From NCBI RefSeq assembly GCF_021401135.1, contig NZ_JACBFO010000001.1, positions 434,001-498,000 of the forward strand: a DNA stretch of 64,000 nt, given 5' to 3'. Positions 1 through 63,009 of this stretch are shown in pieces (position 1 is the first letter of the stretch; the number at the start of each line of letters is the position of its first letter). The translations under genes were made by a program, and so were the position numbers. The notes below the pieces were generated by a model. It was not told the origin of the DNA and searched no databases. It was given only the letters and a program-made list of their open reading frames with translations. This DNA comes from Azonexus sp. R2A61 (GTDB lineage Bacteria > Pseudomonadota > Gammaproteobacteria > Burkholderiales > Rhodocyclaceae).

Positions 1-769
1 TGCCGAGCACCCAGACGTTCTGCAATGCCGCCGACAACAGCGTGCCGCTCAGACCGGCGGCGACGCCGGCCGCCGCGTAGGTGATCGCCATGCCCAGCAC
101 GTAGGCCAGCGACAGCGCGAAGCCGCGGGCGTGCGACGCCTTGGCGCCCTGCCCGGCGATGATGCCGGAGAGGATCGGGATCATCGGGAACATACAGGGC
201 GTCAGCGACAGGCCCAGGCCGGCCACGAAAAACAGCCCGAGCACGCTCCAGAAACCGGCGTTCTTCAGCGTCTGGGCGATTTTTCCGCTGTCGTCGCCGT
301 CGACCGCAGCCGGCTCGCCGGCGGCCATCGGCGCGGCGGCCGGCGTGCTGTCCGGGTCCGGCAGGTTGACCATCACCGTCTGCGTTTGCGGCGGATAACA
401 GACACCGGCCTCGGCGCAGCCCTGCGACACCAGATCCAGCGTCAGCGGCAAGGCGCCGGAACTGTTGCGTTCCACCGGCACGCGGAACACCGCCTGCTGG
501 TGATAGACCTCGACGCGGCCGAAATTCTCGTCGTTCTTCTCCTGCCCGGCCGGCAACTGCAGCGGGCCGAGGACGATGGTTTCGTCGGCGGCGCGCACGC
601 GGAACTTGTCCTTGTACAGGTAGTAGCCGTCGGCGATCTCGTAGCGGACCTCGACCGTCCGGCCGTCGACCGCCCGCGCCGAACCCTTGAAGGCAACGGC
701 GGGATCGAGGAATTCCTGGGCCTGGGCCAGCCCGGCGAACAGCGAGAAGACGAAAAACAGGATACGCAT
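1..769 (-). CDS. dsbD: Thiol:disulfide interchange protein DsbD, N-terminal part (cut by window edge)
   Basis: The frame starts at ATG 769 and runs off the left edge after 256 codons, so only the N-terminal part is visible. A signal peptide (MRILFFVFSLFAGLAQA) is followed by the periplasmic alpha domain, with the cysteine pair in CAEAGVCYPP near residue 130, and then the first membrane segments with the TPCMFP motif. DsbD carries electrons from cytoplasmic thioredoxin across the inner membrane to periplasmic disulfide isomerases and the cytochrome c maturation thioredoxins. It starts 2 nt after the cutA stop, so the two are probably translationally coupled; cutA-dsbD neighbourhood is common in proteobacteria. 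Confidence 0.93.
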   Translation of the reverse strand, partial: MRILFFVFSLFAGLAQAQEFLDPAVAFKGSARAVDGRTVEVRYEIADGYYLYKDKFRVRAADETIVLGPLQLPAGQEKNDENFGRVEVYHQQAVFRVPVERNSSGALPLTLDLVSQGCAEAGVCYPPQTQTVMVNLPDPDSTPAAAPMAAGEPAAVDGDDSGKIAQTLKNAGFWSVLGLFFVAGLGLSLTPCMFPMIPILSGIIAGQGAKASHARGFALSLAYVLGMAITYAAAGVAAGLSGTLLSAALQNVWVLG

Positions 770-771
770 GG

Positions 772-1089
772 TCATCGGACAGTCTCCTGGGCCAGCCAGT
801 TCAGATACGCCGGCAGGCCGTGGGCGATCGGCAGCGCGACGATCTCCGGCACCGCGTGGGGATGCAGTTCGGCGAGGCGCTTTTCCAGCGCCGCGTAGCT
901 TGCTGCGGTCGACTTGATCAGCAACGGAATTTCCGACGCCGATTCGACGGCGCCCTGCCAGCGATAGACCGACTGTACGCGCGGCAGGATGTTCACGCAG
1001 GCGGCCAGCCTTTCCTCGACGAGGGCCAGCGCGATGGCGTTGGCGCAGCTTTCGTCGGGACAGTTGGTGAGGATCAGCAAGGGTTCCAT
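772..1089 (-). CDS. cutA: Divalent-cation tolerance protein CutA
   Basis: A 105-residue protein covering the whole CutA family length, with conserved TNCPD near the start, LAACVNILP, and the C-terminal HPHAVPEIVALP block. CutA proteins form PII-like trimers; a role in copper tolerance was proposed in E. coli but the biochemical function is unsettled. The ATG at 1089 is preceded by GAGGA at a good distance, whereas the frame remains open far upstream inside the permease gene, so this start was chosen. The gene lies between the ABC permease and dsbD on the same strand and probably belongs to one operon with them. Confidence 0.93.
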   Translation of the reverse strand: MEPLLILTNCPDESCANAIALALVEERLAACVNILPRVQSVYRWQGAVESASEIPLLIKSTAASYAALEKRLAELHPHAVPEIVALPIAHGLPAYLNWLAQETVR

Positions 1090-1109
1090 CGGCGAATTCC
1101 TCGGGAAAA

Positions 1110-1883
1110 TCACTTGAGCAGCCGGCGGCGCGTCAGACGCAGCGCGATGGCGAAGGCCACCGCGGCCGTCGCCAGCAGCACGCCGACGTGCAGCAGGGCA
1201 TCGGCCGGCACCTGACCGGCCAGCAACGGCCGGATCAGCGCCACGCCCTGCGCCAGCGGCAGGCACTGGCCGACGAAAGCCAGCCAGCCGGGCAACTGGT
1301 CGGTCGGGAAGAAAACGCCGGAAATCAGCGTCATCGGCGTAATGAACAGCGTGAAGTAATACATGAAGAAATCGTAGGACGGCGCCAGCGCGTTCCAGAT
1401 CAGGCCCAGCGCCGCAAAGGCCAGGCCGGTCAGCACGATGGCCGGCAGCGCCCACAACGCCAGCGGGCCGCTGGTCAGTCCCATCACGGTGATCACCAGC
1501 AGGATGGCGGCACCGGAAAACAGCGACTTGGTCGCCGCCCAGACGAGTTCCCCGGCAACCACATCGGCCAGCCCGAGCGGCGTGTTGAGGATGGCATCCC
1601 AGGTCTTCTGCACGTGCATCCGCGAGAAGGACGAATACAGCGCCTCGAAGGTCGCCGCGTTCATCGTCGACGCACACACCGTACCGGCCGCCAGGAAAGC
1701 GATGTAAGGCTGGCCGTCGATGCTCGGCAACATCGCCCCCAGCCCGTAGCCGAGGCCGAGCATGTAGATCATCGGATCGGCCAGATTGCCGAGGATGGAA
1801 GGCAGCGCAAGCTTTCGCCAGACCAGGAAATTGCGTTGCCAGACAGGAAACCAGCCGGCGGTGGCGAGCAGGGAGACGGACAT
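1110..1883 (-). CDS. ABC-2 type transporter permease (NodJ-like)
   Basis: A 257-residue inner-membrane protein with about six hydrophobic segments and the ABC-2 permease signature region (GVFFPTDQLPGWLAFVGQ, then LPLAQGVALIRPLL) near the C-terminus. Together with a NodI-type ATPase it would form an exporter of unknown substrate. The matching ATPase is not adjacent: the best candidate is at 4580-5497 on the same strand, beyond a HAD gene and an AT-rich patch. In most genomes nodI-like and nodJ-like genes touch, so the pair seems to have been split here. Downstream genes are cutA and dsbD. Confidence 0.88.
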   Translation of the reverse strand: MSVSLLATAGWFPVWQRNFLVWRKLALPSILGNLADPMIYMLGLGYGLGAMLPSIDGQPYIAFLAAGTVCASTMNAATFEALYSSFSRMHVQKTWDAILNTPLGLADVVAGELVWAATKSLFSGAAILLVITVMGLTSGPLALWALPAIVLTGLAFAALGLIWNALAPSYDFFMYYFTLFITPMTLISGVFFPTDQLPGWLAFVGQCLPLAQGVALIRPLLAGQVPADALLHVGVLLATAAVAFAIALRLTRRRLLK

Positions 1884-3807: not shown

Positions 3808-4575
3808 ATGGAAATGCCGAATGACGTGAAGGCGGTGCTGATCGATCTGGCCGGGGTGCTGCACACCGGCGACGAGGCGCTGGCGGGGGCGGTGCCGGCG
3901 TTGAAGCGTTTGCGCGGTGCCGGGCTGGTGTTGCGCTTCCTGACCAATACCACGCGCACGCCGGGCAGCGTGTTGTTCACCAAGCTGTGCCGGATGGGTT
4001 TCGAGTTGTCGGCCGGCGAGATCCAGACCGCCGCGCTGGCGGCCCGCACGGTGGTGCGCGAGCGCGGCTTGCGGCCGCACTGGATGGTGCATCCGAACAT
4101 CGCCGGCGAGATGGGGCCGGACGCCGCCGAGCCGGATGTCGTGGTCCTCGGTGACATGGGTGAGCATTTCAGCTACGCCGGCCTCAACCGCGCCTTCCGT
4201 TTGCTGATGCAGGGCTGTCCGCTGATCGCCATGGCGCGCAACCGCTATTTCATGGAAAGCGACGGGCTGGCGCTGGACATGGGGGCTTTCGTCGCCGGGC
4301 TGGAGTATTCGGCGGGCGTCAGGGCCGAGATCGTCGGCAAGCCGGCGCCGGCCTTTTTTGCCGCGGCGCTGGCCGAGCTGGGTGTGACGGCGGATCAGGC
4401 AGTGCTGATCGGCGACGATCTGAGCGACGACATCGGCGGCGCGCAGGCGGCGGGCATCGCCGGCATTCTGTTGCGTACCGGCAAGTTCCGGCCGGGCGAC
4501 GACGCCAGTCCGGACATCCGGCCGGCGCTGACGGCGGACGATTTCGCGGCTGCGGTCGACCGGCTGGTCGGCTAG
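3808..4575 (+). CDS. HAD-superfamily hydrolase (class IIA, phospholysine/HDHD2-like)
   Basis: A 255-residue HAD phosphatase. Motif I reads DLAGVLHTGD, so the second position of DxD is alanine-glycine rather than the classic Asp, as in HDHD2/LHPP-type proteins. Motif II is FLTNTTRTP, the lysine is in IVGKPAP and motif IV is LIGDDLSDDI. The substrate is not predictable. AGGAGG at 3794-3799 sits 8 nt before ATG 3808, while the upstream GTG at 3802 is only 2 nt away, so ATG 3808 is chosen. Codon use returns to the GC-rich norm. It converges with the ABC ATPase gene, with only 4 nt between them. Confidence 0.82.
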   Translation: MEMPNDVKAVLIDLAGVLHTGDEALAGAVPALKRLRGAGLVLRFLTNTTRTPGSVLFTKLCRMGFELSAGEIQTAALAARTVVRERGLRPHWMVHPNIAGEMGPDAAEPDVVVLGDMGEHFSYAGLNRAFRLLMQGCPLIAMARNRYFMESDGLALDMGAFVAGLEYSAGVRAEIVGKPAPAFFAAALAELGVTADQAVLIGDDLSDDIGGAQAAGIAGILLRTGKFRPGDDASPDIRPALTADDFAAAVDRLVG

Positions 4576-4579
4576 AAAT

Positions 4580-5497
4580 TCAGTCGCGCAGTTCGCGGCC
4601 GGTCAGCTTGATGAAGACGTCTTCGAGGTTGGCGGCGCGGTGCATGTAGCGCAGGCCGTCTTCGTCGGCCAGCGCGGCGAGCAGCGGCGCGGCGTCGCGG
4701 CAGTAGAAGAAGGCGGTTTCGCCGCTGGCTTCGACGCGTTCGGCAAGCTGGCGGTGGTTTTCGACGAATCCGGGCAGTCGACCGCAGCTTTCGTCGAAGA
4801 CTTCGACGACTTGCGGTTCGATGTGCGTGGCGATCAGTTCGCGCGGGCTGCCTTCGGCGATCTTGCGTCCGTGGTCGACGACGATCAGCGTGTCGCACAG
4901 CCGTTCGGCTTCGTCCATGAAATGGGTGGTCAGGATCAGCGTCTTGCCGGCCGCCTTGAGTTGCTTGAGCCGTTCCCAGATCAGGTGGCGGGCCTGCGGG
5001 TCGAGGCCGGTGGTCGGTTCGTCGAGGAAGACGATGTCCGGGTTGGCGACCAGCGCGCGGGCCAGGGTCAGGCGCCGTTTCATGCCGCCGGACAGCGTGG
5101 CGATGCGCGCATCGGCCTTGCCGGAGAGGCTGGCGAATTCGAGCAGTTGCGGGATGCGGGCGCGGATTTCGGCGTCGGGCAGGCCGAAGTAGCGGCCGAA
5201 GACCAGCAGGTTTTCGGCGCAGGTGAAATCCGGATCGAGGTTGTCGAACTGCGGCACGACGCCGGCACGCGCCCGTGCCGCCTGCGCGTCCTGCGGAATG
5301 GCATGGCCGCCGAGAGTGATCCGGCCGGCGTCCGGCGCGGTCAGGCCGAGGCAGAGGCGCAGCGTGGTGGTCTTGCCGGCGCCGTTCGGGCCGAGCAGGC
5401 CGAAGCAGGTGCCGGGCTGGACGGCGAACGACAGGCCGGCGACGACTTCGCTGTCGCCGTAGGCCTTGCGCAGCGAATCGACGCTCAGTGCCGCCAT
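4580..5497 (-). CDS. ABC transporter ATP-binding protein (NodI/DrrA-like)
   Basis: A 305-residue ATPase with Walker [12 protein letters not shown]-loop VVPQFDNLD, signature LSGGMKRR, Walker B IVFLDEPT and the H-loop histidine in LTTHFMDE. The C-terminal extension (about residues 225-305) is typical of NodI/DrrA ATPases that work with ABC-2 permeases. The likely permease partner is at 1110-1883 on the same strand. The start overlaps the 3' end of the upstream hydrolase gene by 13 nt, indicating an operon. Confidence 0.9.
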
Positions 5498-6123
5498 GCG
5501 CGGGTCACGATGTCGCGGATGTGGTGCAGCCGGCGATGGAAGAAGTGGTCGGCGCCGGGCACCACGACGACCGGCAGGTCGAGCGGCTGGGCCCAGGCGA
5601 AGACGTTGTCCAGCGGCACCGTGTCGTCGGCCGAGCCGTGGATGACGATGGTGTCGTGCGGCACCGCTTCGGTGTCGTACTGGCGGCTGTTTTCGACGTA
5701 GCCGGCGGCGGTGCCGACCAGCACCAGGCGCTGCGCCGGGTGGCCGGTGTCGGCCAGCCGTTTGGCGACGCGCGTCTGGCAGTAGGCGCCGAAGGAGAAA
5801 CCGGCCAGCGCCACCGGCAGGTCGCCGCAGCGCCGTTTCGCTTCGTCGAGGACGACCAGCAGGTCGTCGGTTTCGCCGATGCCTTCATCGTGCTCGCCCT
5901 CGCTCAGGCCGACGCTGCGGAAATTCGGCCGGAAGGCGGCATAGCCGAGCGCGACGAAGGTCTTGGCCAGCGTGTAGGCGACCTTGTTGGTGTTGGCGCC
6001 GCCGCCGATCGGGTGCGGATGGGCGACCAGCGCGATGCCGCGCGGCGCGTCCGGGCGTTCCATGATCAGCTCGATCTTGCCGGCCGGGCCGTCGATCAGC
6101 AGTTTTTCCTCGATGACTTTCAT
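5485..6123 (-). CDS. Alpha/beta hydrolase (COG2945-like)
   Basis: A 212-residue small alpha/beta hydrolase. The oxyanion region reads AHPHPIGGG, the nucleophile elbow is GFSFG (serine near residue 109), the acid lies in SADDTVPLD and the histidine in GADHFFH. Members of this group are short cytosolic esterase-like enzymes of unknown substrate. The gene is followed by the ABC ATPase with a 13-nt overlap and preceded by the ferredoxin gene 3 nt upstream, so all three are probably co-transcribed. Confidence 0.85.
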
Positions 6124-6126
6124 TTT

Positions 6127-6435
6127 TCAGATTTTCAGGCGGTCGACCGGACGACCGTTGATCAGGTGTTCCTGGATGATTTCCTCGACGTCGTCGTTAT
6201 CGACGAAGGCGTACCAGGTTTCTTCGGGGTAGACGACCATCACCGGGCCCTGGTCGCAACGGCCCAGGCAGCCGGCCTTGTTGATGCGCACGGCGCCGGG
6301 GCCGTTCTTCTTCAGTTGGCCGATGCGATCCTTGGCGTAGGCGAAGGCCTCGCTGCCGCCGACACGGTCGCAGCAGGCTTCGCCGTTCGGGCGCTGGTTG
6401 GTGCAGATGAAAACGTGATGCTGGAAATAGCTCAT
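6127..6435 (-). CDS. Thioredoxin-like [2Fe-2S] ferredoxin
   Basis: A 102-residue protein with the thioredoxin-like ferredoxin pattern: FICTNQRPNGEACC near the N-terminus and NKAGCLGRCDQGP in the middle, supplying the four cluster cysteines. Such proteins resemble the NuoE C-terminal domain and Azotobacter FdI-type shethna proteins and act as small electron carriers; the partner is unknown. The start is ATG 6435, preceded by GGAGAG; an upstream in-frame ATG (MPIRTERP) lacks a site. It heads a run of three same-strand genes. Confidence 0.88.
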   Translation of the reverse strand: MSYFQHHVFICTNQRPNGEACCDRVGGSEAFAYAKDRIGQLKKNGPGAVRINKAGCLGRCDQGPVMVVYPEETWYAFVDNDDVEEIIQEHLINGRPVDRLKI

Positions 6436-6480: not shown

Positions 6481-7554
6481 TCAGCCGGCGCGTCCTTGCG
6501 GTCGACCGAGGGCCAGCAGCAAAAACGGCAGCGCCAGCAACGGCCACAGCGCGGCGACCAGCCGGGTTAGACCGTTGAAGTTGAGAAAGTGCCCCTGTCG
6601 CCAGGCGGCTAGCGCCGCCGCCGAATACGGATTGGCCGGTGCCAGGTTGACCAGCACGCTGCCGGCGATCAGCACCGGGACGGCCAGCCACAGCGCCAGC
6701 CGGTTCGGCAGCCAGAGCAGCAGCAGCAGCGCGATGCCGGCCACGCTCAGCCCCTGCCGCGCACCGGGCGTCAGCCAGGCCATCGCCTCGGCCGGTCCGA
6801 CCAGCACGGCGGCGCTGACCGCGCGCACGGCCAGTCCGAGCAGCAGGAAGATGGCGACAGTCGGATAGGCGGTCCACCGCCGGGCGCACAAATAACGCAG
6901 CATCAGCCCGACGGCCAGCGCGTTGCAGGCGGTGACGCCGGCCTCGACCGCGGCAAAGCTGTCTACCGAGAACGGCAGCAGCGGATCGACGGTGATCAGG
7001 TGGCGGATGTCGCCGGCGCCGAACAGCAGGATTTCCGGCGACAGCGGTACCAGCAACCACAGGCCGAGCAGCGTCAGCCCCAGTTCGGCATGCGGCACCG
7101 GCGCGATCAGCCGCTGTTCGACGGCGATCAGCCGGGCAAAGATGCGCGGGCCGACGATCTGCGCCCAGATCGCGCCGATCAGCACGCCCAGCGTGTTGCA
7201 CGCCAGGTCGAGGTTGGACGGTACGCGCGTCGGCAGCCAGTTCTGCAGCGTTTCCAGCCCCAGGCTGACAGCGCCGCCGAGCAGCGTGGCCAGGATCGGG
7301 GCGGTGTAGCGACCGGGCAGCCGACGCAGCGCGAGCGTGAAAAAGAAGCCGAGCGGCACGTAGACCGCAACATTGGCCAGCAGGTCGAAGAGCGTCCAGT
7401 AACGCGGCCAGTCGGTATTCAGGAAAGCCCACGGCGAGACACCGCTGTCGCGCCAGCCCGAGAACGGGTGCAGGCTGCCGTAGACGGTCAGCCCGAGCCA
7501 GGCGAGCGCCAGATAGCGGGCGAGAACGATGGGGCCGTTGCCAGATCGGGACAT
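6481..7554 (-). CDS. VanZ-family membrane protein
   Basis: A 357-residue polytopic inner-membrane protein. The N-terminal third matches VanZ-like proteins (SLHPFSGWR; DLLANVAVYVPLGFF; SLGLETLQNWLPTRVPSNLDLACNTLG), followed by further hydrophobic segments, giving about nine to ten in all. The founding VanZ confers low-level teicoplanin resistance, but chromosomal VanZ-like proteins of proteobacteria have no agreed role. A copy of the TGCGGTCGAC motif lies in the last codons (6497-6506). It precedes the ferredoxin gene by 45 nt. Confidence 0.85.
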   Translation of the reverse strand: MSRSGNGPIVLARYLALAWLGLTVYGSLHPFSGWRDSGVSPWAFLNTDWPRYWTLFDLLANVAVYVPLGFFFTLALRRLPGRYTAPILATLLGGAVSLGLETLQNWLPTRVPSNLDLACNTLGVLIGAIWAQIVGPRIFARLIAVEQRLIAPVPHAELGLTLLGLWLLVPLSPEILLFGAGDIRHLITVDPLLPFSVDSFAAVEAGVTACNALAVGLMLRYLCARRWTAYPTVAIFLLLGLAVRAVSAAVLVGPAEAMAWLTPGARQGLSVAGIALLLLLWLPNRLALWLAVPVLIAGSVLVNLAPANPYSAAALAAWRQGHFLNFNGLTRLVAALWPLLALPFLLLALGRPQGRAG

Positions 7555-9160: not shown

Positions 9161-9850
9161 TTATAAGGGTATTGGCGGTTGTTGCGCCGCAGCAGCCGGG
9201 GAAAAAGGCGGCGGGCTGGAAATTTCGAGGCGGGCTGCGGTCGACGGGTGGATGAAGGCAATTTTTGCCGCATGCAGCAGCAGGCGTTCGGCTCGGGTGG
9301 TTGCCTCGCCGCCGTACAGGTCGTCGCCGAGGATGGGATGGCCGAGCGAGGCCAGGTGCACGCGCAATTGATGCGAACGGCCGGTGACCGGTTCCAGTTC
9401 GACCAGCGTGCATTGCCGCGCCGGACAGCGCTCCAGGATGCGGAAACGGGTCAGCGACGGCTTGCCGATGCTGTGGTCGACTTTCTGCCGGGGGCGATTC
9501 GGCCAGTCGCAGATCAGCGGCAGGTCGATCTCCCCGGCCTCGACGGCCGGCAGGCCGTCGACCACCGCGATGTAGCGCTTGTCCACCAGTCGCTCGCGAA
9601 ACAGCCGGGACAGTTCGCTGTGCATCGCCTTGCCGCGCGCCAGCACCAGCAGGCCGGAGGTGGACATGTCGAGCCGGTGCACGGCGAGTGCGTCGGGATA
9701 AGCGACCTGGACGCGCGACAGCAGGCAATCCTGCTTGTCGTCGCCGCGGCCGGGCACCGACAGCAGGCCGGACGGCTTGTCGACGATCAGCAGGTCGGCG
9801 TCGACATGGCGGATCGCCGGTTGCTCCGGGGGCGGCAGGTAGGCGCTCAT
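9161..9850 (-). CDS. RluA-family pseudouridine synthase
   Basis: A 229-residue single-domain pseudouridine synthase without an S4 domain. The catalytic motif is HRLDMSTSGLL (Asp near residue 64), with DLLIVDKPSGLLSVPG upstream and GRSHQLRVHLASLGHPILGDDLYG downstream. Size and motifs fit RluA itself (23S rRNA U746 and tRNA U32), though RluA paralogues cannot be excluded. ATG 9850 overlaps the stop of the small upstream gene as ATGA, which fixes the start. A TGCGGTCGAC copy lies in the C-terminal codons (9236-9245). Confidence 0.88.
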   Translation of the reverse strand: MSAYLPPPEQPAIRHVDADLLIVDKPSGLLSVPGRGDDKQDCLLSRVQVAYPDALAVHRLDMSTSGLLVLARGKAMHSELSRLFRERLVDKRYIAVVDGLPAVEAGEIDLPLICDWPNRPRQKVDHSIGKPSLTRFRILERCPARQCTLVELEPVTGRSHQLRVHLASLGHPILGDDLYGGEATTRAERLLLHAAKIAFIHPSTAARLEISSPPPFSPAAAAQQPPIPL

Positions 9851-10250: not shown

Positions 10251-11279
10251 ATGGACGACAACAAGGCAAAGGCGCTCGCCGCAGCGCTGCAACAGATCGA
10301 AAAGCAGTTCGGCAAGGGCTCCATCATGAAGATGGGCGATGCCGAGATCGACGAAGGGCTGCAGGTCGTATCGACCGGCTCGCTCGGTCTGGACATCGCG
10401 CTGGGCGTCGGCGGTCTGCCGCGCGGCCGTGTCGTCGAGATCTACGGTCCGGAATCCTCGGGCAAGACCACGCTCTGTCTGCAGGTCGTCGCCGAAATGC
10501 AGAAGCTCGGCGGTACCGCCGCCTTCATCGACGCCGAACACGCGCTCGATCCGCAATATGCGCAGAAGCTCGGGGTCAACGTCGGCGATCTGCTGATTTC
10601 GCAGCCGGATACCGGCGAGCAGGCGCTGGAAATCGCCGACATGCTGGTCCGTTCCGGCTCGGTCGACATCATCGTCGTCGACTCGGTCGCCGCGCTGACG
10701 CCGCGCGCCGAAATCGAAGGCGAGATGGGCGACCAGATGGTCGGCCTGCACGCCCGCCTGATGTCGCAGGCGCTGCGCAAGCTGACCGCCAACATCAAGA
10801 AGACCAACACGCTGGTCATCTTCATCAACCAGATCCGCATGAAGATCGGCGTCATGTTCGGTTCGCCGGAAACCACCACCGGCGGCAACGCGCTGAAGTT
10901 CTACGCCTCGGTGCGCATGGATATCCGGCGCATCGGCGGCATCAAGAAGGGCGACGAGGTGATCGGCAACGAAACCAAGGTCAAGGTCGTCAAGAACAAG
11001 GTGTCGCCGCCGTTCCGCGAAGCCATCTTCGACATCCTGTACGGCGAGGGCATCTCGCGCGAAGGCGAGATCGTCGAGATGGGGGTCGCCCACAAGCTGA
11101 TCGACAAGTCCGGGGCCTGGTATGCCTACAACGGCGAGAAGATCGGCCAGGGCAAGGACAACGCCCGCGAATTCCTCCGGTCGCACCCGGAAATCGCCCA
11201 GGAGCTTGAAGCCAAGATCCGCGAGGCGGCTGCGACCACCGTCATCAAGCCGACCAAGTCGGCGCCGGCGAGTGCCTGA
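10251..11279 (+). CDS. recA: Recombinase RecA
   Basis: A 342-residue RecA. Visible motifs are Walker [10 protein letters not shown], the catalytic region ALDPQYA, Walker [11 protein letters not shown], loop L1 [18 protein letters not shown] and loop L2 [20 protein letters not shown]. It forms the ATP-dependent filament on single-stranded DNA for recombination and stimulates LexA self-cleavage. The SOS promoter lies upstream at 10040-10076. The recX start overlaps its end by 8 nt. Length and sequence are entirely typical of proteobacteria. Confidence 0.99.
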
Positions 11280-11706
11280 CCTGCGGGTCCGCGCGCTGCA
11301 GTTGTTGGCCCGGCGCGATCACAGCCGGGCCGAACTGCGTGCCAAACTGGCCGTCCATGCCGAGTCGGCCGATGAAGTCGAGTCCGTACTCGATACCCTG
11401 CAGGCCGAGCGCCTGCTCTCCGATCATCGTTATGCCAGCCAGCGCGTCGCGGCACGCGCCGGCCGCTACGGCAATGCCCGGTTGCGTCTGGAACTGAAGC
11501 AGCAGGGTGTGGCCGAGGAAGACATCGACGCCGCCCTGCCGGAAGCCGGCGACGAGGTCGAACGCTGCCGTTCGATCTGGGCAAAAAAGTTCGGTCAGCC
11601 GCCGTTGACCGCAGAAGCGCGTGCAAAACAGATGCGTTTCCTGCAGTATCGCGGCTTTTCCGCAGACGCCATCCGCCAGACACTGCGTGGAGCCGAAGAC
11701 GAATGA
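11272..11706 (+). CDS. recX: Regulatory protein RecX
   Basis: A 144-residue RecX with the usual three-helix repeats: [36 protein letters not shown], and the C-terminal [16 protein letters not shown]. RecX caps or inhibits RecA filaments. The GTG at 11272 overlaps the recA stop and gives the standard RecX length; an open extension further upstream lies inside recA in another frame. It ends in an ATGA overlap with lptB, so recA-recX-lptB are arranged for co-translation. Confidence 0.93.
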
Positions 11707-12437
11707 CCCTGCCGCCAGCCACCCTGACCGCCAGCCACCTGAAGAAACGCTATAAATCGCGTACCGTCGTCGAGGACGTTTCGTTCGCCGTCAAATCCGG
11801 CGAGGTGGTCGGGCTGCTCGGACCCAACGGCGCCGGCAAGACCACCTGTTTCTACATGATCGTCGGCCTGGTTGCCGCTGACGGCGGCGATGTGCACATC
11901 GACGACGAGCGGCTGACCCATCAACCGATCCACGCCCGGGCGCGCCTCGGCCTGTCCTACCTGCCGCAGGAAGCGTCGGTGTTCCGCAAGCTCAACGTCG
12001 AGGAAAACATCCTCGCCGTGCTCGAACTGCTCGGCCTGCCCAAGAGCGAACTGCAGGAACGTCTGGAAACCCTGCTCAGCGAACTGCACATCGGCCATGT
12101 CCGGCATGTCAATGCGGCGGCGCTGTCGGGCGGCGAGCGGCGGCGCGTCGAAATCGCCCGTGCCCTGGCCACCGATCCGCGTTTCATCCTGCTCGACGAA
12201 CCGTTTGCCGGGGTCGACCCGATTGCCGTGCTGGAAATCCAGAAGATCATCCGCTTCCTCAAGGAGCGCGGCATCGGTGTGCTGATCACCGATCACAACG
12301 TGCGCGAGACGCTCGGCATCTGCGATCACGCCTGGATCATCAATGCCGGCAAAGTCCTGGCGGCTGGACGGCCGGACGAAATCGTCGATAATGAAAGCGT
12401 ACGCAGGGTTTATCTCGGCGAGAACTTCAAGCTCTGA
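11703..12437 (+). CDS. lptB: LPS export ABC transporter ATPase LptB
   Basis: A 244-residue ATPase with Walker [12 protein letters not shown]-loop [11 protein letters not shown] (the LptB-specific form), signature LSGGERRR, Walker [14 protein letters not shown] and H-loop ITDHNV. LptB drives lipopolysaccharide extraction from the inner membrane with LptFG and LptC. The usual upstream partners lptC and lptA are missing here; the gene instead overlaps recX (ATGA). rpoN follows after 24 nt, the common lptB-rpoN order. Confidence 0.97.
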
Positions 12438-13942: not shown

Positions 13943-14266
13943 ATGAACCTGCAGATCAGTGGCCACCATATCGAAGTTACCCCGGCACTCCGCGAGTATG
14001 TCGAGAGCAAGCTGGATCCTGTGCTGCGCCACTTCGACAAGGTAACTGGGGTCAACGTCGTGTTGTCCGTCGAAAAGCTCAAGCAGCAGGCCGAAGTCAC
14101 CGTGCATGTGCCGGGCAAGGACCTGCATGTCGAGGAAGCGGCCGACGACCTGTATGCCGCCATCGACGCCATGTTCGACAAGTTGGACCGCCAGGTCCAG
14201 AAGCACAAGCAGAAGCTTCAGGACCACCACCGCGGCGACAAGGCAGCGAATCACATCGCCGATTGA
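13943..14266 (+). CDS. hpf: Ribosome hibernation-promoting factor (HPF/RaiA family)
   Basis: A 107-residue short-type HPF beginning MNLQISGHHIEVTPALREYV, with the conserved basic face around HKQKLQDHHRG. It binds the 30S A and P sites and promotes 100S ribosome dimers in stationary phase. A strong GAGAGGAG site lies just before the ATG. It sits 14 nt after rpoN, with an intrinsic terminator immediately downstream at 14277. Confidence 0.95.
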   Translation: MNLQISGHHIEVTPALREYVESKLDPVLRHFDKVTGVNVVLSVEKLKQQAEVTVHVPGKDLHVEEAADDLYAAIDAMFDKLDRQVQKHKQKLQDHHRGDKAANHIAD

Positions 14267-16093: not shown

Positions 16094-16105
16094 GCCGGAA
16101 TTGCG

Positions 16106-16148
16106 GGTCGACCGCAGCAGGATGGCCGTCTTCGGACGGCCATCCTGC
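16106..16148. terminator. Bidirectional hairpin with an iterated-palindrome half-site
   Basis: GCAGGATGGCCGTC (16117-16130), a TTCG tetraloop and its perfect complement (16135-16148) form a 14-bp stem between convergent genes, 2 nt from the cyclase stop. The arm is abutted on the left by GGTCGACCGCA (16106-16116), one of the window-wide palindrome half-sites. Confidence 0.75.
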
Positions 16149-47782: not shown

Positions 47783-48540
47783 TTGGTGGCCCTTTCGAGG
47801 ATTTCACCGGCGAGCGAGGCATAGGCCTGCGCGCCCTTCGAGTGCTTGTCGAATGCGATGACCGGCTTGCCGTAGGACGGTGCCTCGGCCAGCCGTACGT
47901 TACGCGGTACGATGGTGCGGTAGACCTTGTCGCCGAAGTGATTTTCCAGCTCGTTCGACACCTGCTGGGTCAGCGTGCTCTGGCCGTTATACATGGTGCG
48001 CAGCAGGCCTTCGATCTCCAGTCGCGGATTCAGGTGATGGCGCACCTTGCGCAGCGTCTCGACGAGGTCGGACAGACCTTCCAGCGCGTAGTACTCGCAC
48101 TGCATCGGGATCAGCACCGAATCGGCGGCGACCAGCGCATTGACCGTCAGCATGTTGAGCGCCGGCGGGCAGTCGATCAGCACGAAATCGTATTCGTCGT
48201 GGTTCTGCTGCAATGCATTCTTGAGTCGGTATTCGCGCTGCTCGAGTTCGATCATTTCGACCTCGGCGCCGGCCAGTTCGCGATTGGCCGGCAGCACGTC
48301 GAAGGTGAATTCGGTCTTGATGCACACCTCGACCAGCGAGGCGGCGCCGATCAGCAGCTGATAGACGGTCGGCAGCGCATCTTTTTTGGTGATGCCGGCG
48401 CCGGTCGTCGCGTTGCCCTGCGGATCCATGTCGATCAGCAGCACGCGCTGGCCCTCGGCGCCGAGTGAGGCGGCGAGATTGACGGCGGTCGTCGTCTTGC
48501 CGACGCCGCCCTTCTGGTTGGTGATGGCGAGGACTTTCAT
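47779..48540 (-). CDS. parA: Chromosome partitioning ATPase ParA (Soj)
   Basis: A 253-residue deviant-Walker ATPase: [19 protein letters not shown], switch [13 protein letters not shown] and [15 protein letters not shown]. It works with ParB to segregate the origin region. It overlaps rsmG at its start and parB at its end (ATGA in both cases). Confidence 0.97.
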
Positions 48541-49154
48541 TGGCCCGCTTTCAGGATGATCAGGTGTCTTTCGGCGTCCAGCCCGGGTACGGCTAGCGGG
48601 ACGATGCGGTCGACGGTGATGTCGGCCGGCAAGGCGGCGATTTCGTCGTCGGGACGGACGCCCTTCATCGCCAGCCAGCGGCCGCCGGGCGCCAGCAGAT
48701 GGCGGGTCAGCTCGACGAACAGCCCAAGCTCGGCGAAGGCGCGCGAACTGATCTGGGCGTACTGGCCGGTCAATTCCTCGACCCGGGCGTGGTCGACCGC
48801 GACATTCTTCAGGCCGAGCTGGATCGCCGCCTGCTGCAGGAAGGTCGCTTTCTTCTGCACCGTGTCGACCATGCGTACCGCCAGTTGCGGCCGGGCGATG
48901 GCCAGCGGGATGCCGGGCAGGCCGCCGCCGGCGCCGACGTCGAGCAGGGCGCCGTCATTGACATGCGGCAGGATCGCCAGCGAGTCGAGCAGGTGGTGCG
49001 AAACGGCTTGTTCTGGATCGCGCAGTGCGGTCAGGTTGTAGGTCTTGTTCCACTTGAGCAGCAGGTCGCGGAAGGCGAGCAGTTGCTGCTGCGCGGCGTC
49101 GGGCAGGTCGAGGCCGAGTGCGGCCAGGCCGCTGGCGAGGGTGATCGCGCTCAT
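48537..49154 (-). CDS. rsmG: 16S rRNA (guanine527-N7)-methyltransferase RsmG
   Basis: A 205-residue methyltransferase (GidB) with SAM motif [18 protein letters not shown] and [15 protein letters not shown]. It methylates G527 of 16S rRNA; loss gives low-level streptomycin resistance. It overlaps mnmG and parA by 4 nt each, so mnmG-rsmG-parA-parB are tightly coupled. Confidence 0.97.
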
Positions 49155-51049
49155 GCGGCTTGCGACAGCTTGAAACGTTTGAGGTGAATCAGCAGCAGCG
49201 AGATCGCCGCCGGCGTGATGCCCTGGATGCGCGAGGCCTGACCGATGGTCTGCGGCCTGTGCTGATTGAGCTTCTGCTTGACCTCGTTGGACAGGCCGGC
49301 GACCGTGCCGTAATCGATATCGACGGGCAGCACGGTGTTTTCGTAGCTGGCCGACTTGGCGACTTCCTCGGCCTGGCGGTCGATATAGCCCTGGTACTTG
49401 GCGGAGATTTCGAGCTGTTCGATCACCGCTTCGTCAATCTCCGGCAGTTCCTGCGGTCGACCGTCGATTTCCAGCGAAATCAGGCTGCCGTAGGTGACTT
49501 CCGGCCGGCGCAGCAGCTCGAACAGGTTGTACTCGTGGTCGATGGCCTTGCCGAGCACGCGCTGGCAATCGTCGGCGGCGACGATCTTCGGGTTGATCCA
49601 GGTCGATTTCAGGCGTTCCTGCTCGCCGGCGATCGCGTCACGCTTGCGGCAGAAGGCGTCCCAGCGCACGTCGTCGACCAGGCCGAGCGCCCTGCCCTGC
49701 TCGGTCAGGCGCAGGTCGGCGTTGTCTTCGCGCAGACTCAGGCGATATTCGGCGCGGCTGGTGAACATCCGGTAGGGATCGGAGACGCCGCGCGTGATCA
49801 GATCGTCGACCAGCACGCCGAGGTAGGCCTCGTTGCGCTTCGGGCACCAGCCGTCGCGGCCGCGCACGTAATTCACCGCGTTGATGCCGGCGAGCAGGCC
49901 CTGCGCGGCGGCTTCCTCGTAGCCGGTGGTGCCGTTGATCTGGCCGGCGAAGAAGAGGCCGTTGATCGCCTTGGTTTCCAGCGTGTCCTTGAGGCCGCGC
50001 GGATCGTAGAAGTCGTATTCGATGGCGTAGCCCGGGCGCAGGATGTGGCAGTTTTCCAGCCCCTTGATCGAGCGTACCAGCGCCAGCTGGATGTCGAAGG
50101 GCAGGCTGGTCGATACGCCGTTCGGGTAGATTTCGTGCGTGGTCAGGCCTTCCGGTTCGAGGAAGACGTTGTGCTGGTTCTTGTCGGCGAAGCGGTGGAT
50201 CTTGTCCTCGATCGACGGGCAGTAGCGCGGGCCGACGCCTTCGATGACGCCGGTGTACATCGGCGAGCGATCCAGGCCGCTGCGGATGATATCGTGCGTC
50301 TTCTCGTTGGTTTCGGTGATCCAGCACGGCAGTTGTTTCGGGTGCTGCGCCGCGTTGCCGAGGAAGGAAAACACCGGCAGCGGATCGTCCGAGTGCTGCT
50401 CTTCCATCACCGAGAAGTCGATGGTCTTGCCGTCCAGGCGCGGCGGCGTGCCGGTTTTCAGGCGGCCTTGCGGCAGGTTCAGTTCCTTGAGGCGGGCGGC
50501 CAGCGACACCGATGGCGGATCGCCCATGCGCCCGCCGGTGTAATTCTCCAGCCCGACGTGGATCTTGCCGTTGAGGAAGGTGCCTGCGGTCAACACCACG
50601 GAATCGGCCAAAAAGCGGATGCCGAGCTGGGTGACCGCGCCGCACACCTGGTCGCCCTCGACGATCAGGTCGTCGCAGGCCTGGGCGAAAATGGTCAGGT
50701 TCGGCTGATTTTCCAGACGCGTGCGGATCGCCTGCTTGTACAGCACGCGGTCGGCCTGGGCGCGGGTGGCGCGTACCGCCGGGCCCTTCGAGGCATTGAG
50801 GATGCGGAACTGGATGCCGGCTTCGTCGGTCGCCGCCGCCATGGCGCCGCCCAGCGCGTCGACCTCGCGCACCAGGTGGCCCTTGCCGATGCCGCCGATG
50901 GACGGGTTGCAGCTCATCGCGCCGAGCGTGTCGAGGTTGTGCGTCAGCAGCAGCGTACTCGCCCCGGCCCGCGCCGCGGCGAGCGCGGCTTCGGTGCCGG
51001 CGTGGCCGCCGCCGACGACGATGACATCGAAACGGGTGGGATAAAGCAT
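49151..51049 (-). CDS. mnmG: tRNA uridine-5-carboxymethylaminomethyl modification enzyme MnmG
   Basis: A 632-residue FAD protein (GidA) with the dinucleotide motif [45 protein letters not shown] and the C-terminal [15 protein letters not shown]. With MnmE it modifies the wobble uridine of several tRNAs. ATG 51049 (MLYPTRFDV) gives the standard length; the longer open frame upstream crosses an iterated palindrome and is rejected. Location with rsmG-parAB is typical of origin-proximal DNA. Confidence 0.97.
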
Positions 51050-51124
51050 GGAATTCGGCCTTGCTGCAGTGCGGTAGCGGACCGCGGATTTTACGTCAGG
51101 TGGCTGAAAAATCACAGGTTTAGC

Positions 51125-51137
51125 GCGGTCGACCGCA
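51125..51137. repeat. Iterated palindrome in the mnmG/response-regulator gap
   Basis: GCGGTCGACCGCA lies in the 115-nt gap between the divergent mnmG and response-regulator genes. It matches 13 of the 14 bases of the dispersed palindrome. Confidence 0.75.
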
Positions 51138-51164
51138 GAAGCCGCGGGGTTTTTCTTGCCGGCC

Positions 51165-52926: not shown

Positions 52927-52936
52927 TGCGGTCGAC
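52927..52936. repeat. Palindrome half-site upstream of ribE
   Basis: TGCGGTCGAC in the 70-nt gap between the response-regulator stop and the riboflavin synthase start. Confidence 0.6.
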
Positions 52937-52971
52937 GTGATAAAGTCCCCATTTTTTGCACGGGGTTTCGC

Positions 52972-53568: not shown

Positions 53569-53570
53569 CC

Positions 53571-54114: not shown

Positions 54115-54143
54115 TTGAAAAACCCCGGTGACGCCCCCATAAT
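54115..54143 (+). promoter_or_regulatory. Sigma-70 promoter of ssrA
   Basis: TTGAAA (54115-54120), a 17-nt spacer and CATAAT (54138-54143) give a near-consensus promoter. Transcription would begin near 54150, leaving about 63 nt of acceptor piece before the T-arm end at 54212. Confidence 0.75.
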
Positions 54144-54149
54144 CCACGG

Positions 54150-54425
54150 CATGGTTGTAATTCCGGCAATCTGGAGGCGTTCTGGACAGGGGTTCGATTC
54201 CCCTCACCTCCACCCAAGGGCATTCACCGAGTGTCCTTGCGATGGGGGTGTACTGGTTTCGACAGGGCGGGCAAAGGTGCGCAGGCAACCCGAAAGGTGA
54301 CGGACGTAATCCGCACAAATCCATAAACGCCAACGATGAGCGTTTCGCTGTTGCCGCCTAATCGGCATAGCTGGGGCCGCTGAAGCCTTATTACCCAAGA
54401 CAGCCGGCGGGGACTTCGGTCCCCG
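54150..54425 (+). ncRNA. ssrA: Permuted two-piece tmRNA
   Basis: The 3' tRNA-like part comes first: T-stem AGGGG (54188), loop TTCGATT, CCCCT, then acceptor CACCTCC and discriminator A (54205-54212). A hairpin spacer follows: CAAGGGCATTC/GAGTGTCCTTG (54215-54239), an 11-bp stem with loop ACC. The 5' part starts at GGGGGTG (54244), pairing with CACCTCC and creating the G3-U70 pair read by alanyl-tRNA synthetase, then TGGTTTCGACA. The tag frame (54329-54361) encodes ANDERFAVAA and a stop. A GGGGAC-TTCG-GTCCCC hairpin (about 54408-54425) ends the gene. Permuted tmRNAs are known in alphaproteobacteria, cyanobacteria and some betaproteobacteria. The exact ends are inferred. Confidence 0.92.
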
Positions 54426-54454
54426 TCGTCACATCCGTCGCACGCTTTTCTTCC

Positions 54455-55057
54455 TCAGTGGGCGTAGCCGTCGTTTTCCCGCAGGCAGTAGCCGCGAGTC
54501 GCATGCACGCCGTCGATCTTCGTTGCCACCAGGATGCCGCTGCGTTCCAGTTGCTTGACGATACGCGAGATGGTTTCGAAGCGCAGGTCGGTGATGTCGG
54601 CGATATCGTGTCGGGTGGGTAATACGACGCGGCCGGCACCATCGGCGAGCAGTCGGGCCAGACCGAGCACGCGATCGACGGCCTGGCCGCCGCGCAGTGC
54701 GATGACCTCGGCGGCCCGTTGCTGGGCCTGTGCCAGCGAGGCCAGCAGGGAATCGCCGCTGGTCGCCGATTCGCCTTCCGGCCAGGGGCGCAGTTCGCAA
54801 TGCGTCAAGGCGCTGGCCGTGAAGGTGTAGGCGCCGAACAGCAGGGTTTCGCAGCCGAGGATGTCGCCGGCGATCGCCAGGCTGGCGAAACGGCGCTCGC
54901 CATCGGGTGTGCCCGTGTCCAGGCGGACGACGCCTTTGCCGACGCGCCAGGCCAGGCCGGTGTTGCCGCTCCGGTAGATCTCCTCGCCGGCACCGTGTTC
55001 GCGGTTGGCCCGTGTCGGTCCGGATTTCCTGCGGTCGACCGTGGAAAAGAAGCCCAT
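54455..55057 (-). CDS. Crp/Fnr-family transcriptional regulator
   Basis: A 200-residue regulator: a cyclic-nucleotide-binding-like domain (about 25-100, GEEIYRSGNTG; ASLAIAGDILGCETLL) and a C-terminal winged HTH with recognition helix DLRFETISRIVKQLE (E-SR pattern of FNR-type proteins). No N-terminal cysteine cluster is present, so oxygen sensing through [4Fe-4S] is unlikely; DNR/NnrR-like NO sensing is possible but unproven. AGGAG lies 8 nt before ATG 55057. A palindrome copy lies over codons 6-10. It follows the copper-receptor gene after 74 nt on the same strand. Confidence 0.87.
   Translation of the reverse strand: MGFFSTVDRRKSGPTRANREHGAGEEIYRSGNTGLAWRVGKGVVRLDTGTPDGERRFASLAIAGDILGCETLLFGAYTFTASALTHCELRPWPEGESATSGDSLLASLAQAQQRAAEVIALRGGQAVDRVLGLARLLADGAGRVVLPTRHDIADITDLRFETISRIVKQLERSGILVATKIDGVHATRGYCLRENDGYAH
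55030..55042. repeat. Iterated palindrome at the 5' end of the Crp/Fnr gene
   Basis: TGCGGTCGACCGT within the first codons, flanked by TTTCC and GGAAA so that the mRNA can form a stem of about 12 bp with two G-U pairs and one mismatch, just inside the coding region. Confidence 0.65.
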
Positions 55058-55131
55058 TTCAATTCTCCTGTGCCGGAAACGCAAAAACCCCGGCGCGCTG
55101 GCCGGGGTGGATACGGATCGGGGTCGCCGGG

Positions 55132-57387: not shown

Positions 57388-57430
57388 TGCGGTCGACGGG
57401 AATTTCTGCCGGTTTTTGCGGTCGACCGCG
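57388..57430. repeat. Paired copies of the iterated palindrome between ptsI and the receptor gene
   Basis: TGCGGTCGAC at 57388-57397 and TGCGGTCGACCGC at 57417-57429 lie 29 nt apart in the same orientation, 5 nt beyond the ptsI stop, followed by the candidate operator. This is the densest cluster of the motif in the window. Confidence 0.7.
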
Positions 57431-57434
57431 CCGC

Positions 57435-59177
<1,743 letters not shown>

Positions 59178-59882: not shown

Positions 59883-60770
59883 TCATTTACGGCTGACGAT
59901 CAGGATCCCCGCGATGACCAGCGCCGCGCCAGTCGCCTGGGCGGCCGAGATGTGTTCTGCGAGCAGCCACCAGCCGAAGCCGATGGTCAGGATCGGTCCG
60001 ACCATCCCGTACAGCGAGGCCGGGCCGGCACCCAGCTGACGGATGGCCGCCGACTGCGCAAATACCGGAATGATCGTCGCGAACAACGCCATCGCCGCCC
60101 CCCAGCCGTAAACCGGCAGCGGCTGGACGAATGCGGTCAACGGCTGGCTGAGCGAAAAATGCAGCAGCGTCACGGCGGTGGAGACCAGCATAGCCAGCGC
60201 CGAGAAACGCATCGCGCCGAGACGGGCGATCATGTCGGCGCTGCCGGCCAGATACAGGGCGTAGGACACGCTGGAGGCAAAGACCAGCGCGCCGCCGATC
60301 AGCACCGAGCGCGCATCGCCCAGGCCGAGGTCGTGGACGAACGCGAAGCCGATGCCGACATAGCACAGCGTCACCGCCAGCAACTGGCGACGGGTGAAGG
60401 ACTTGCCCTGGAACAGGACGCCGATCAGCAAGGTCAGCGTCGGATAAGTGAACAGAATCAGTCGTTCCAGGCCGGCCGAAATGTAGGCCAGTCCCCAGAA
60501 ATCGAGAATGCTGGCGCCGTAGTAGCCGAGGCAGCCGAGTACCGCCAGGCGCAGCCAGTCGGCGCCACCCAGCCGTACTGCCGAAGCCTGGCGACGCAAG
60601 CCGAACCACAGGAAGACCGGTAGCGCCATGCCCATGCGCAGTGCGAGCAGTGTGATCGCGTCGACGCCGTACGGATAGGCCAGCTTGACGAAGATCGCCT
60701 TCATCGAGAAGCCCAGCGCGGCAAGCAGCGCGAGCAGGATGCCGAGGGAACGGCTACCGTCCATGGGCAT
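59883..60770 (-). CDS. EamA/DMT-family transporter
   Basis: A 295-residue protein with ten membrane segments arranged as two EamA repeats (FSMKAIFVKLAYPYG...; FATIIPVFAQSAAIRQLG...). Members export metabolites such as amino acids; the substrate is unknown. It starts with an ATG overlapping the MFS stop by one base (TGATG), so both are one transcript. Confidence 0.88.
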   Translation of the reverse strand: MPMDGSRSLGILLALLAALGFSMKAIFVKLAYPYGVDAITLLALRMGMALPVFLWFGLRRQASAVRLGGADWLRLAVLGCLGYYGASILDFWGLAYISAGLERLILFTYPTLTLLIGVLFQGKSFTRRQLLAVTLCYVGIGFAFVHDLGLGDARSVLIGGALVFASSVSYALYLAGSADMIARLGAMRFSALAMLVSTAVTLLHFSLSQPLTAFVQPLPVYGWGAAMALFATIIPVFAQSAAIRQLGAGPASLYGMVGPILTIGFGWWLLAEHISAAQATGAALVIAGILIVSRK

Positions 60771-61963: not shown

Positions 61964-62071
61964 GGGAATCTCGGGCGTTCTGGCGTGGGTGGCGAGAGGT
62001 GGATTGAAACGCCGGCGGCAGCGGCTGGCAATTGGTATTATCGAAAGCGAGCGTTCGAACCAGACGAAACC

Positions 62072-62965
62072 ATGCATTACGACCTACCCGACCTGCGGCT
62101 CGTTGCCGCGATTGCCGACAGCGGCAGCCTGACGCGTGCCGCGGAGCGCGTGCACCTCGCGCCGTCGTCGGCCAGCCATCGCCTGTCGCAGCTCGAAGCG
62201 GCGCTCGGCGTGGCCTTGTTCGAACGCCATGCGCGCGGCCTGACGCCGACCGCTGCCGGCGAATCGCTGCACCGCCATGCCCGCCAGGTGTTCGCCCAGC
62301 TCGAACAGATGCATGCCGACCTGGCGCCCTACGCCAGCGGTGTCAACGCCCAGGTCACCGTGTTCGCCAACACCAACGCGATCAACTGCTTCCTGCCCGG
62401 CGATCTCGGCGATTTCCTGCGCGAACATCCGAACATCCGGGTCAGCCTGGAAGAACAACCCAGCCCGGCGATCGTCCGCGCCGTCGCCGCCGGCCAGGTG
62501 GACATCGGCGTGGTTGCCGCCGAGGGCGATTTCGGCGAACTGCAGGCGACGCCCTACCGGCGCGACCGGCTGGTGCTGATCGTTGCGGTCGACCACCCGC
62601 TGGCGGCAAAAAGCGAAATCGCCTTCGCCGAGGTGTTGACCGAAGCCTTCGTCTGTCTGCACGCCGGCAGCGCCATTCACACCTTCATGATGAACCATGC
62701 CGCGCTGCTCGGCGGCCGGCTCGACGTGCGTATCCAGGTGCGCAGCTTCGCCGCCGTCTGCCGGATGGTCGCCGCCGGGGTCGGCATCGGCATGGTGCCG
62801 CGCTCGTCGGTACTGGCGGTCGACGCGTTGAAGATCGTCGAAATCAGCGATCCCTGGGCGCCGCGCGACCTGCAACTGTGCGTGCGTTCGCCGGCGGCGC
62901 TGAGTGCGGCGGCGGCGGCCTTGCTGGCGCATCTGTCGGGCAAGGCGGAGGCCGCCCCGGGCTAG
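62072..62965 (+). CDS. LysR-family transcriptional regulator
   Basis: A 297-residue LysR regulator with N-terminal winged HTH (AAIADSGSLTRAAERVHLAP and SSASHRLSQLEAALG) and a periplasmic-binding-like effector domain (about 90-290). It is divergent from the MFS-EamA pair and likely controls it; the 108-nt divergent gap is the place for its operator, but no clear T-N11-A site is singled out. It ends before the palindrome at 62996. Confidence 0.92.
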   Translation: MHYDLPDLRLVAAIADSGSLTRAAERVHLAPSSASHRLSQLEAALGVALFERHARGLTPTAAGESLHRHARQVFAQLEQMHADLAPYASGVNAQVTVFANTNAINCFLPGDLGDFLREHPNIRVSLEEQPSPAIVRAVAAGQVDIGVVAAEGDFGELQATPYRRDRLVLIVAVDHPLAAKSEIAFAEVLTEAFVCLHAGSAIHTFMMNHAALLGGRLDVRIQVRSFAAVCRMVAAGVGIGMVPRSSVLAVDALKIVEISDPWAPRDLQLCVRSPAALSAAAAALLAHLSGKAEAAPG

Positions 62966-62995
62966 CCTCGCCGTCCGGCAAAAATCGCGTTTTGC

Positions 62996-63009
62996 TGCGG
63001 TCGACCGCA
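62996..63009. repeat. Iterated palindrome, full 14-bp copy
   Basis: TGCGGTCGACCGCA in the gap between the convergent LysR and MazG-like genes, flanked by TTTTGC and GGCAACC so the arms extend imperfectly. Confidence 0.8.

Follow-up and report, generated by a model that had tools for sequence, protein, structure and literature searches.

An oriented, two-part motif iterated throughout an Azonexus genome, probably a DNA-uptake signal

PMC12616744 names Neisseriaceae and Pasteurellaceae as the sole families known to take up DNA selectively by means of short sequence motifs. The uptake signal sequence (USS) of Pasteurellaceae is described as a GCGG core with A/T segments downstream and occurs in Hin and Apl types (PMC1626085, PMC7811141, and PMC12616744); an A/T segment lies about two helical turns downstream of the core (PMC12616744). 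The DNA uptake sequence (DUS) of Neisseriaceae has the core CTG (PMC12616744). The highly iterated palindromes (HIPs) are short and symmetric, and methyltransferases are associated with them (PMC4390886). Here, we describe an iterated motif in a 64,000-nucleotide stretch of Azonexus sp. R2A61 (contig NZ_JACBFO010000001.1, positions 434,001 to 498,000; hereafter, the window), in its source genome (G000; 3.73 Mb [3727 kb] in 13 contigs), and in related genomes. The motif is probably a USS-type DNA-uptake signal, as in Pasteurellaceae, that has built up in this Azonexus lineage. This inference draws on its core, the one-sided distal A/T block, its density and orientations, its dialects and sporadic loss, the origin of sites by substitution, and the inverted pairs.

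Anatomy and context of the iterated motif

The unit is an asymmetric, oriented two-part motif, not a palindrome. In the anatomy sample of 464 kb of G000 (400 kb of contig C5 plus the window), it comprises the core TGCGGTCRAC, about 15 bp, and then an A/T block, with weaker A/T spots at steps of about 10 bp; its general form is 5' dialect bases, GGTCRAC, about 15 bp, and AAWWT. Across 208 exact TGCGGTCRAC sites, in DNA of 63% G+C, the A/T share at positions +25 to +28 was 82%, 97%, 95%, and 91%. All four positions were A or T in 72% of these cores, while elsewhere between -40 and +59 (neighboring offsets 23 to 27 set aside) no offset had a run of four A/T bases in more than 15% of them. Weaker A/T enrichment recurred at intervals of roughly one helical turn, near -13, -4, and +16/+17. 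Iteration converged on a weight matrix of 52 positions and about 23 bits, for which the same 464 of 3727 kb served both training and counting; it retrieved 374 oriented sites, versus 5 in the mirrored sequence. This corresponds to a density of about 0.8 oriented sites per kb, or roughly one per 1.2 kb. The weight-matrix alignment revealed no constant sequence around the sites beyond the motif itself. Both orientations are common, with 984 forward and 896 reverse matches to GGTCRAC-N15-WWWW in the whole genome.

The earlier note on the window had proposed a dispersed palindrome, based on 24 start positions of the 10-mer TGCGGTCGAC or its complement, and all 24 positions are correct. Scanning both strands gives 27 strand-specific matches at these 24 places, as the complete 14-mers at 17974, 23530, and 62996 match on both strands. 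The accompanying estimate of fewer than one chance copy per window also holds (0.26 by dinucleotide shuffles, 0.9 by a third-order Markov model), as does enrichment genome-wide: TGCGGTCGAC occurs 1256 times (647 + 609), versus 12 times (5 + 7) for a mirrored-pattern control. Thus, the element is highly iterated throughout the genome, as claimed, but a HIP1-like palindrome is not its unit, given the asymmetry and the one-sided A/T block. When the 10-mer is varied one base at a time, only position eight is fully tolerant: TGCGGTCAAC is as overrepresented in the 464 kb as TGCGGTCGAC (48 seen, 24.0-fold with A; 160 seen, 24.9-fold with G). The first two bases showed a small excess when changed (4.1- and 5.7-fold), and a few other variants amounted to 3 to 4 copies.

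The weight matrix places 63 oriented sites at 52 places within the window. Each site listed below spans 30 bp, from core to A/T block, and is given with its strand and matrix score.

279-308, minus: oriented site, 31.7; outside predicted coding sequence
904-933, plus: oriented site, 28.0
4551-4580, plus: oriented site, 24.0
4757-4786, minus: oriented site, 28.0; in coding sequence 4580-5497 (minus)
6122-6151, minus: variant core, 24.8
6497-6526, plus: oriented site, 23.2
7340-7369, minus: variant core, 21.9
9220-9249, minus: double with 9236, 15.7
9236-9265, plus: double site, 30.0
10571-10600, plus: variant core, 22.0
11584-11613, minus: TGCGGTCAAC, 22.2
12209-12238, plus: variant core, 18.3
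14047-14076, plus: weak site, 17.2
16087-16116, minus: oriented site, 26.5
17958-17987, minus: half of full 14-mer double, 33.1
17974-18003, plus: half of full 14-mer double, 27.9
19343-19372, plus: TGCGGTCAAC, 18.3
20588-20617, plus: weak site, 17.6
20611-20640, minus: TGCGGTCAAC, 32.9
21378-21407, minus: variant core, 22.0
23514-23543, minus: half of full 14-mer double, 32.5
23530-23559, plus: half of full 14-mer double, 28.3
27934-27963, minus: oriented site, 28.2
28392-28421, plus: oriented site, 22.4
28417-28446, minus: oriented site, 26.8
29323-29352, plus: variant core, 20.7
30252-30281, minus: double site, 23.0
30268-30297, plus: double site, 30.0
31495-31524, minus: weak site, 15.3
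31564-31593, minus: oriented site, 21.8
33566-33595, plus: oriented site, 23.5; inside purL-like gene 31941-35930 (plus)
34196-34225, plus: variant core, 18.8
34742-34771, plus: weak site, 17.6
35930-35959, minus: double, 34.2; at stop codon of purL-like gene
35946-35975, plus: double, 32.2; after purL-like gene
38516-38545, plus: TGCGGTCAAC, 21.8
39488-39517, minus: CGCGGTCGAC, 22.5
41422-41451, minus: weak site, 16.6
43836-43865, minus: weakest site of the list, 12.9
47074-47103, plus: weak site, 16.3
47270-47299, plus: TGCGGTCAAC, 30.8
47667-47696, minus: double site, 30.1
47683-47712, plus: weak, double site, 16.9
47916-47945, plus: weak site, 16.3
48605-48634, plus: weak site, exact core with poor A/T block, 15.5
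48772-48801, minus: oriented site, 25.2
49436-49465, minus: double site, 20.8
49452-49481, plus: double site, 23.6
50585-50614, plus: TGCGGTCAAC, 25.7
51108-51137, minus: double site, 30.2
51124-51153, plus: double site, 23.6
52927-52956, plus: oriented site, 19.6
55014-55043, minus: weak, double site, 13.3
55030-55059, plus: double site, 21.7
57388-57417, plus: oriented site, 26.1
57401-57430, minus: double site, 27.6
57417-57446, plus: double site, 18.8
60132-60161, plus: TGCGGTCAAC, 23.6
62584-62613, plus: oriented site, 26.1
62615-62644, minus: weak site, 17.6
62815-62844, plus: oriented site, 19.1
62980-63009, minus: half of full 14-mer double, 34.1
62996-63025, plus: half of full 14-mer double, 34.4

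The region from 35.98 to 48.6 kb, where the atp operon lies, had been reported as free of copies. This is true of the exact 10-mer but not of weight-matrix sites: matches occur at 38516, 39488, 47270, and 47667 (scores of 21.8 to 30.8), with weaker ones at 41422, 43836, 47074, 47683, and 47916 (12.9 to 16.9). The gap is therefore an artifact of demanding the exact 10-mer. The window also holds a transfer-messenger RNA (tmRNA) gene (54123-54452; tag ANDERFAVAA), marked tmRNA* by ARAGORN; we take the asterisk to mean that the RNA is probably of the permuted two-piece form.

The complete palindrome arises where two sites of opposite orientation overlap head to head on GTCGAC. Plus and minus sites share GTCGAC in exact register at 50 places in the 464 kb, and several of these double sites lie directly 3' of stop codons. 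All four intergenic doubles picked by hand fold into hairpins (-26.0 to -40.2 kcal/mol; z scores of -2.7 to -6.5), while neither of two hand-picked intragenic doubles does so (z scores of -0.6 and -0.7). The double site at 35930-35975 forms a predicted 20-bp hairpin of -29.7 kcal/mol after a long gene that we take, from its length, to be purL. The folding predictions suggest that inverted pairs after genes are terminator-like. Terminator-like inverted pairs after genes have been described for the USS and DUS (PMC1852404 and PMC13020248), the latter source placing uptake motifs in terminators of both Neisseriaceae and Pasteurellaceae.

High iteration and the GTCGAC palindrome within the motif are also what would be expected of a HIP-like element, with GGTCGACC as a methylated palindrome that mismatch repair and a DNA methyltransferase would maintain. 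Elhai put this model forward in 2015 for HIP1 and the alternate HIPs (PMC4390886). However, the strong A/T block stands on one side only, TGCGGTCAAC has a nonpalindromic center and is enriched as much as TGCGGTCGAC, and GGTCGACC itself is just 2.2-fold over expectation.

By our own rough gene prediction, site density is 0.80 per kb in coding and 0.84 per kb in noncoding DNA. The earlier note had allowed that codon bias in frame might fully explain the motif; this was refuted by synonymous shuffling within 344 predicted genes, which reduced 166 exact cores to 9 to 17 (10 shuffles). Likewise, 181 sites scoring at least 20 compare with a mean of 16.9 over 20 shuffles. Codon usage or protein motifs (A-V-D, V-D-R, and S-T-A) acting alone could account for the finding that 128 of 162 same-strand genic sites share one frame. 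They could also account for part of the weak matches: a mean of 94 remained of 283 sites scoring at least 12, so protein context matters more for weak sites. Nonetheless, the loss of most enrichment upon shuffling, the equal density in noncoding DNA, and the fixed distance between core and A/T block leave this explanation next to no chance of being right.

Turnover and dialects within the genus

Among 76 genomes of the genus (Azonexus/Dechloromonas, including G000; several are 70 to 90% complete), counts of GGTCRAC-N15-WWWW are bimodal. With the line drawn at 400 matches, 40 genomes are carriers (423 to 1880 matches, 11.8 to 72 times the mirrored control) and 36 are noncarriers (18 to 189 matches, 0.8 to 5.0 times the control); no genome falls between 189 and 423. 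The upper end of the noncarrier counts looks like relics. Outside the genus, GGTCRAC-N15-WWWW was not enriched in 393 sampled genomes of the order (at most 85 matches, in G645, where the control gave 41). The longer form GCGGTCRAC-N15-WWWW occurs 1367 times in G000, versus at most 13 times in 285 sampled genomes of the family's other genera (G225; control, 11). On a PurL protein tree of 21 genomes, a single gene that may itself have been transferred, motif state needs six changes, and close sisters differ.

Conservation was assessed for window sites scoring at least 18 in one 20-kb PurL region across 20 of 75 relatives, the cases not being independent. Seven motif-free relatives kept GGTCRAC in 7 of 72 aligned sites, versus 24.5 expected from matched 7-mers. 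In noncarriers, then, sites were lost or never made; carriers retain individual sites at no more than the average rate. In one 20-kb region, 15 of 25 alignments between carrier and noncarrier sites were free of gaps and the longest single gap was 6 bases, so no insertion of motif length was seen. Within this small sample, sites differ from nonsites by substitution, not insertion. USSs have also been described as arising by mutation (PMC1626085).

These alignments bear on a transposable repeat, or one of the repetitive extragenic palindrome (REP) type mobilized by a REP-associated tyrosine transposase (RAYT), spreading by insertion. Head-to-head doubles that form hairpins in gaps would fit such an element. 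The lack of longer gaps, the equal density of sites in genes and gaps rather than confinement to intergenic DNA, and the lack of constant sequence outside the motif make it extremely improbable.

We also considered sites for an abundant chromosome-organizing or nucleoid-associated protein, or a polar signal such as Chi or the FtsK-orienting polar sequences (KOPS), in which the A/T block would aid bending. The spread of sites over the genome, in genes and gaps alike, is consistent with this, and the helical phasing of the A/T spots fits a bending protein. A Chi- or KOPS-like signal is at odds with the lack of strong strand skew (170 plus and 141 minus sites in one 400-kb stretch, its place relative to the replication origin not being located). 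A core chromosome protein whose sites are missing from 36 of 76 genomes and come in dialects would be odd, and uptake sequences typically show such pairing of sites at gene ends. We therefore regard this explanation as unlikely.

Between species, the 5' core bases vary while the center is constant. Genome-wide, 27 of the 40 carriers have mainly GCGGTCRAC and 13 mainly ACGGTCRAC; by word counts, the top words are CACGGTCRAC in G206 and AGCGGTCGAC in G352. In 120 kb of G350, there was no related word, and the matrix gave 10 matches versus 4 in the control. A dialect consensus was drawn from samples with at least 8 sites, which 8 of 19 carrier samples provided; 5 noncarrier samples had 0 or 1 site. 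The bases preceding GGTCRAC are tGC in G000, aC in G031, gC in G352, CAC in G206, cGC in G030, and aC in G371. The downstream A/T block is present in each dialect, the sampled sites having been chosen by that block. By eye, 33 sites of G371 follow the form yACGGTCAACCGGAAAAAAnGCCAAAATTGAAA, with two A/T segments. The G371 motif (GGTCAACCGGAAAAAANGCCAAAATTGAAA; loci L165-L169 and L072) is longer and more constant than the other sampled dialects.

Sporadic presence in one genus again recalls the alternate HIPs (PMC4390886). What varies between species, however, are the 5' bases, which a GTCGAC recognition site would not cover; together with the asymmetry of the unit, this makes a HIP-like element kept by methylation very unlikely.

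Pilin and comEC genes and atypical regions

G000 encodes 11 proteins with type IV pilin-type N termini. A ComEC domain was found in 71 of the 76 genomes. In two genomes, an interruption of about 33 kb divides the comEC domain, at almost identical points (G002, contig C33, ~109 to 144 kb; G374, contig C1, ~2218 to 2252 kb), and in G035 the domain lies in two frames (contig C1, ~1959 kb); an element may integrate in comEC.

When pilins were compared with NCBIfam and PDB, most matches were to pilins in general; a single PilV model exceeded its cutoff, and there was one match to 4noa, which we take to be a PilE of the Pseudomonas aeruginosa type. A FimT/FimU-like protein has matches in 73 of 76 genomes, with 27 to 58% identity outside G000 among the best matches listed; it was dropped as a receptor lead for being too divergent. 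No pilin group tracks motif presence or dialect in nine genomes with incomplete pilin lists. Operons of the fimU/T-pilV-pilW type (among them L042, 8955-15101; L182, L187, and L204) diverge strongly even between close genomes, which suggests swapping. G352 and G353, for example, are 94.8% identical over 19.5 kb and have like dialects, but their minor-pilin operons belong to different groups. Because the two share a dialect and differ in the operon, the minor-pilin operon is unlikely to set the dialect.

Bins of 10 kb with low G+C are poor in sites: six such bins hold 17 sites (2.8 each), versus 294 in the other 34 (8.6 each). Among these bins are an O-antigen-type region and, surprisingly, the pilQ/pilO region. 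The latter (contig C5, ~90 to 101.5 kb; L013 and L014) carries the pilQ secretin gene, pilO, and an aroB-like gene. Its G+C content is 52.5%, versus 63% for the sample, and it has zero motif sites; on these grounds, the pilus secretin operon of G000 looks recently acquired. A Mu-like prophage stretch (contig C5, ~147.5 to 178.8 kb; L016 and L017) is defined by the extent of its phage-like genes and includes genes for the Mu portal, protein F, the terminase small subunit, a transposition protein, the head protease, and the tape-measure protein.

The uptake-signal reading and comparison with known systems

As an uptake signal, the motif could work as follows. A receptor displayed on the type IV pilus at the cell surface would bind GGTCRAC and the dialect bases on incoming double-stranded DNA, and the A/T block may help the duplex bend or melt while it is pulled through the secretin. 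Site-bearing DNA would be imported and recombined more often; alleles with sites would spread, sites would build up to a density of roughly one per kb, and DNA from the same species would be preferred. Loss or alteration of the receptor's specificity would remove this drive, leaving sites to erode and giving rise to motif-free species, while a changed receptor could produce a new dialect. Head-to-head doubles after stop codons may double as terminator-like hairpins.

Besides the features of the motif itself, this reading is favored by the bimodal and scattered carriage within one genus, by the low retention of GGTCRAC in motif-free relatives, and by the scarcity of sites in low-G+C bins and in the Mu-like prophage stretch. 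Several observations weigh against it. Sites show no preference for noncoding DNA and are spaced no more regularly than random (coefficient of variation of 0.98 versus 0.996 expected, three atypical regions left out), unlike reported USSs and DUSs. The Mu-like prophage stretch is depleted in sites (9 in 31 kb, versus about 25 expected at average density) yet not empty. Carriage is unclustered on the PurL tree, where 320 of 500 label shuffles needed as few changes. In the conservation test, 13 motif-bearing relatives kept GGTCRAC in 46 of 132 aligned cases, versus 44.9 expected. Long comEC frames, with those cut by contig ends counted as short, occur in 33 of 40 carriers and 24 of 36 noncarriers (P = 0.12), and the pilins of nine genomes (93 pilin-like proteins, among the matches listed) do not separate carriers from noncarriers. 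Finally, the best literature matches listed contain no report of competence in the genus.

Those matches likewise hold no uptake sequence system in Dechloromonas, Azonexus, Rhodocyclaceae, or Betaproteobacteria; on that literature, no uptake signal was known before in this bacterial family. The view that the core has no described equivalent stands among the matches listed: the core sequence turned up only in 15 papers that look unrelated by title and abstract, in a search that left bioRxiv and most subscription journals outside.

If the motif is an uptake signal, self-recognizing transformation would be no specialty of mucosal bacteria, Azonexus presumably being environmental. If it is, moreover, a third, independently arisen system, the uptake machine, not the history of one family, would dictate the USS architecture, and the reason for A/T segments in uptake signals could be tested independently. 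With 40 carriers, 36 noncarriers, and several dialects, the genus would then serve as a natural experiment: comparing how the motif was gained, lost, or changed in dialect could help to find the receptor, the still unproven one of the USS included. The reading predicts that carrier species are naturally transformable.

Among the known systems, HIP1 (GCGATCGC) and the alternate HIPs of cyanobacteria resemble the Azonexus motif in their high iteration, palindromic look, and sporadic replacement between species, but the Azonexus motif lacks their symmetry and carries an A/T block distally. The Neisseriaceae DUS (GCCGTCTGAA; receptor, ComP) resembles it in density, dialects, terminator-like pairs, and a host among the Betaproteobacteria; unlike it, the DUS lacks flanking motifs (PMC1626085) and has an unrelated core.

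The closest resemblance is to the Pasteurellaceae USS, in which two A/T segments lie 3' of the core (Hin type, AAGTGCGGT; Apl type, ACAAGCGGT). The differences are that the constant part in Azonexus is GGTCRAC, extending 3' of GCGGT; that the main A/T block is placed a few bases more distally than in published USS oligonucleotides; that two sites can overlap on GTCGAC into a palindrome; that the host is a G+C-rich betaproteobacterial lineage; and that spacing is not regular and intergenic DNA is not preferred. In common with the USS, the GC dialects hold the GCGG(T) core (the AC dialects have ACGG instead), the A/T segments are one-sided, downstream of the core, and at helical spacing, and sites were made by substitution in the small sample examined. 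Shared as well are a density of about one site per kb, both orientations, dialects, and inverted pairs at gene ends. The balance tilts toward a third, independently arisen uptake-signal system that has converged on the Pasteurellaceae USS or inherited a receptor related to that of the USS. The likeness extends to the G371 dialect: its CGGTCAA, GCC, and AAAATT also occur in a synthetic Apl USS from the literature, at a spacing several bases off.

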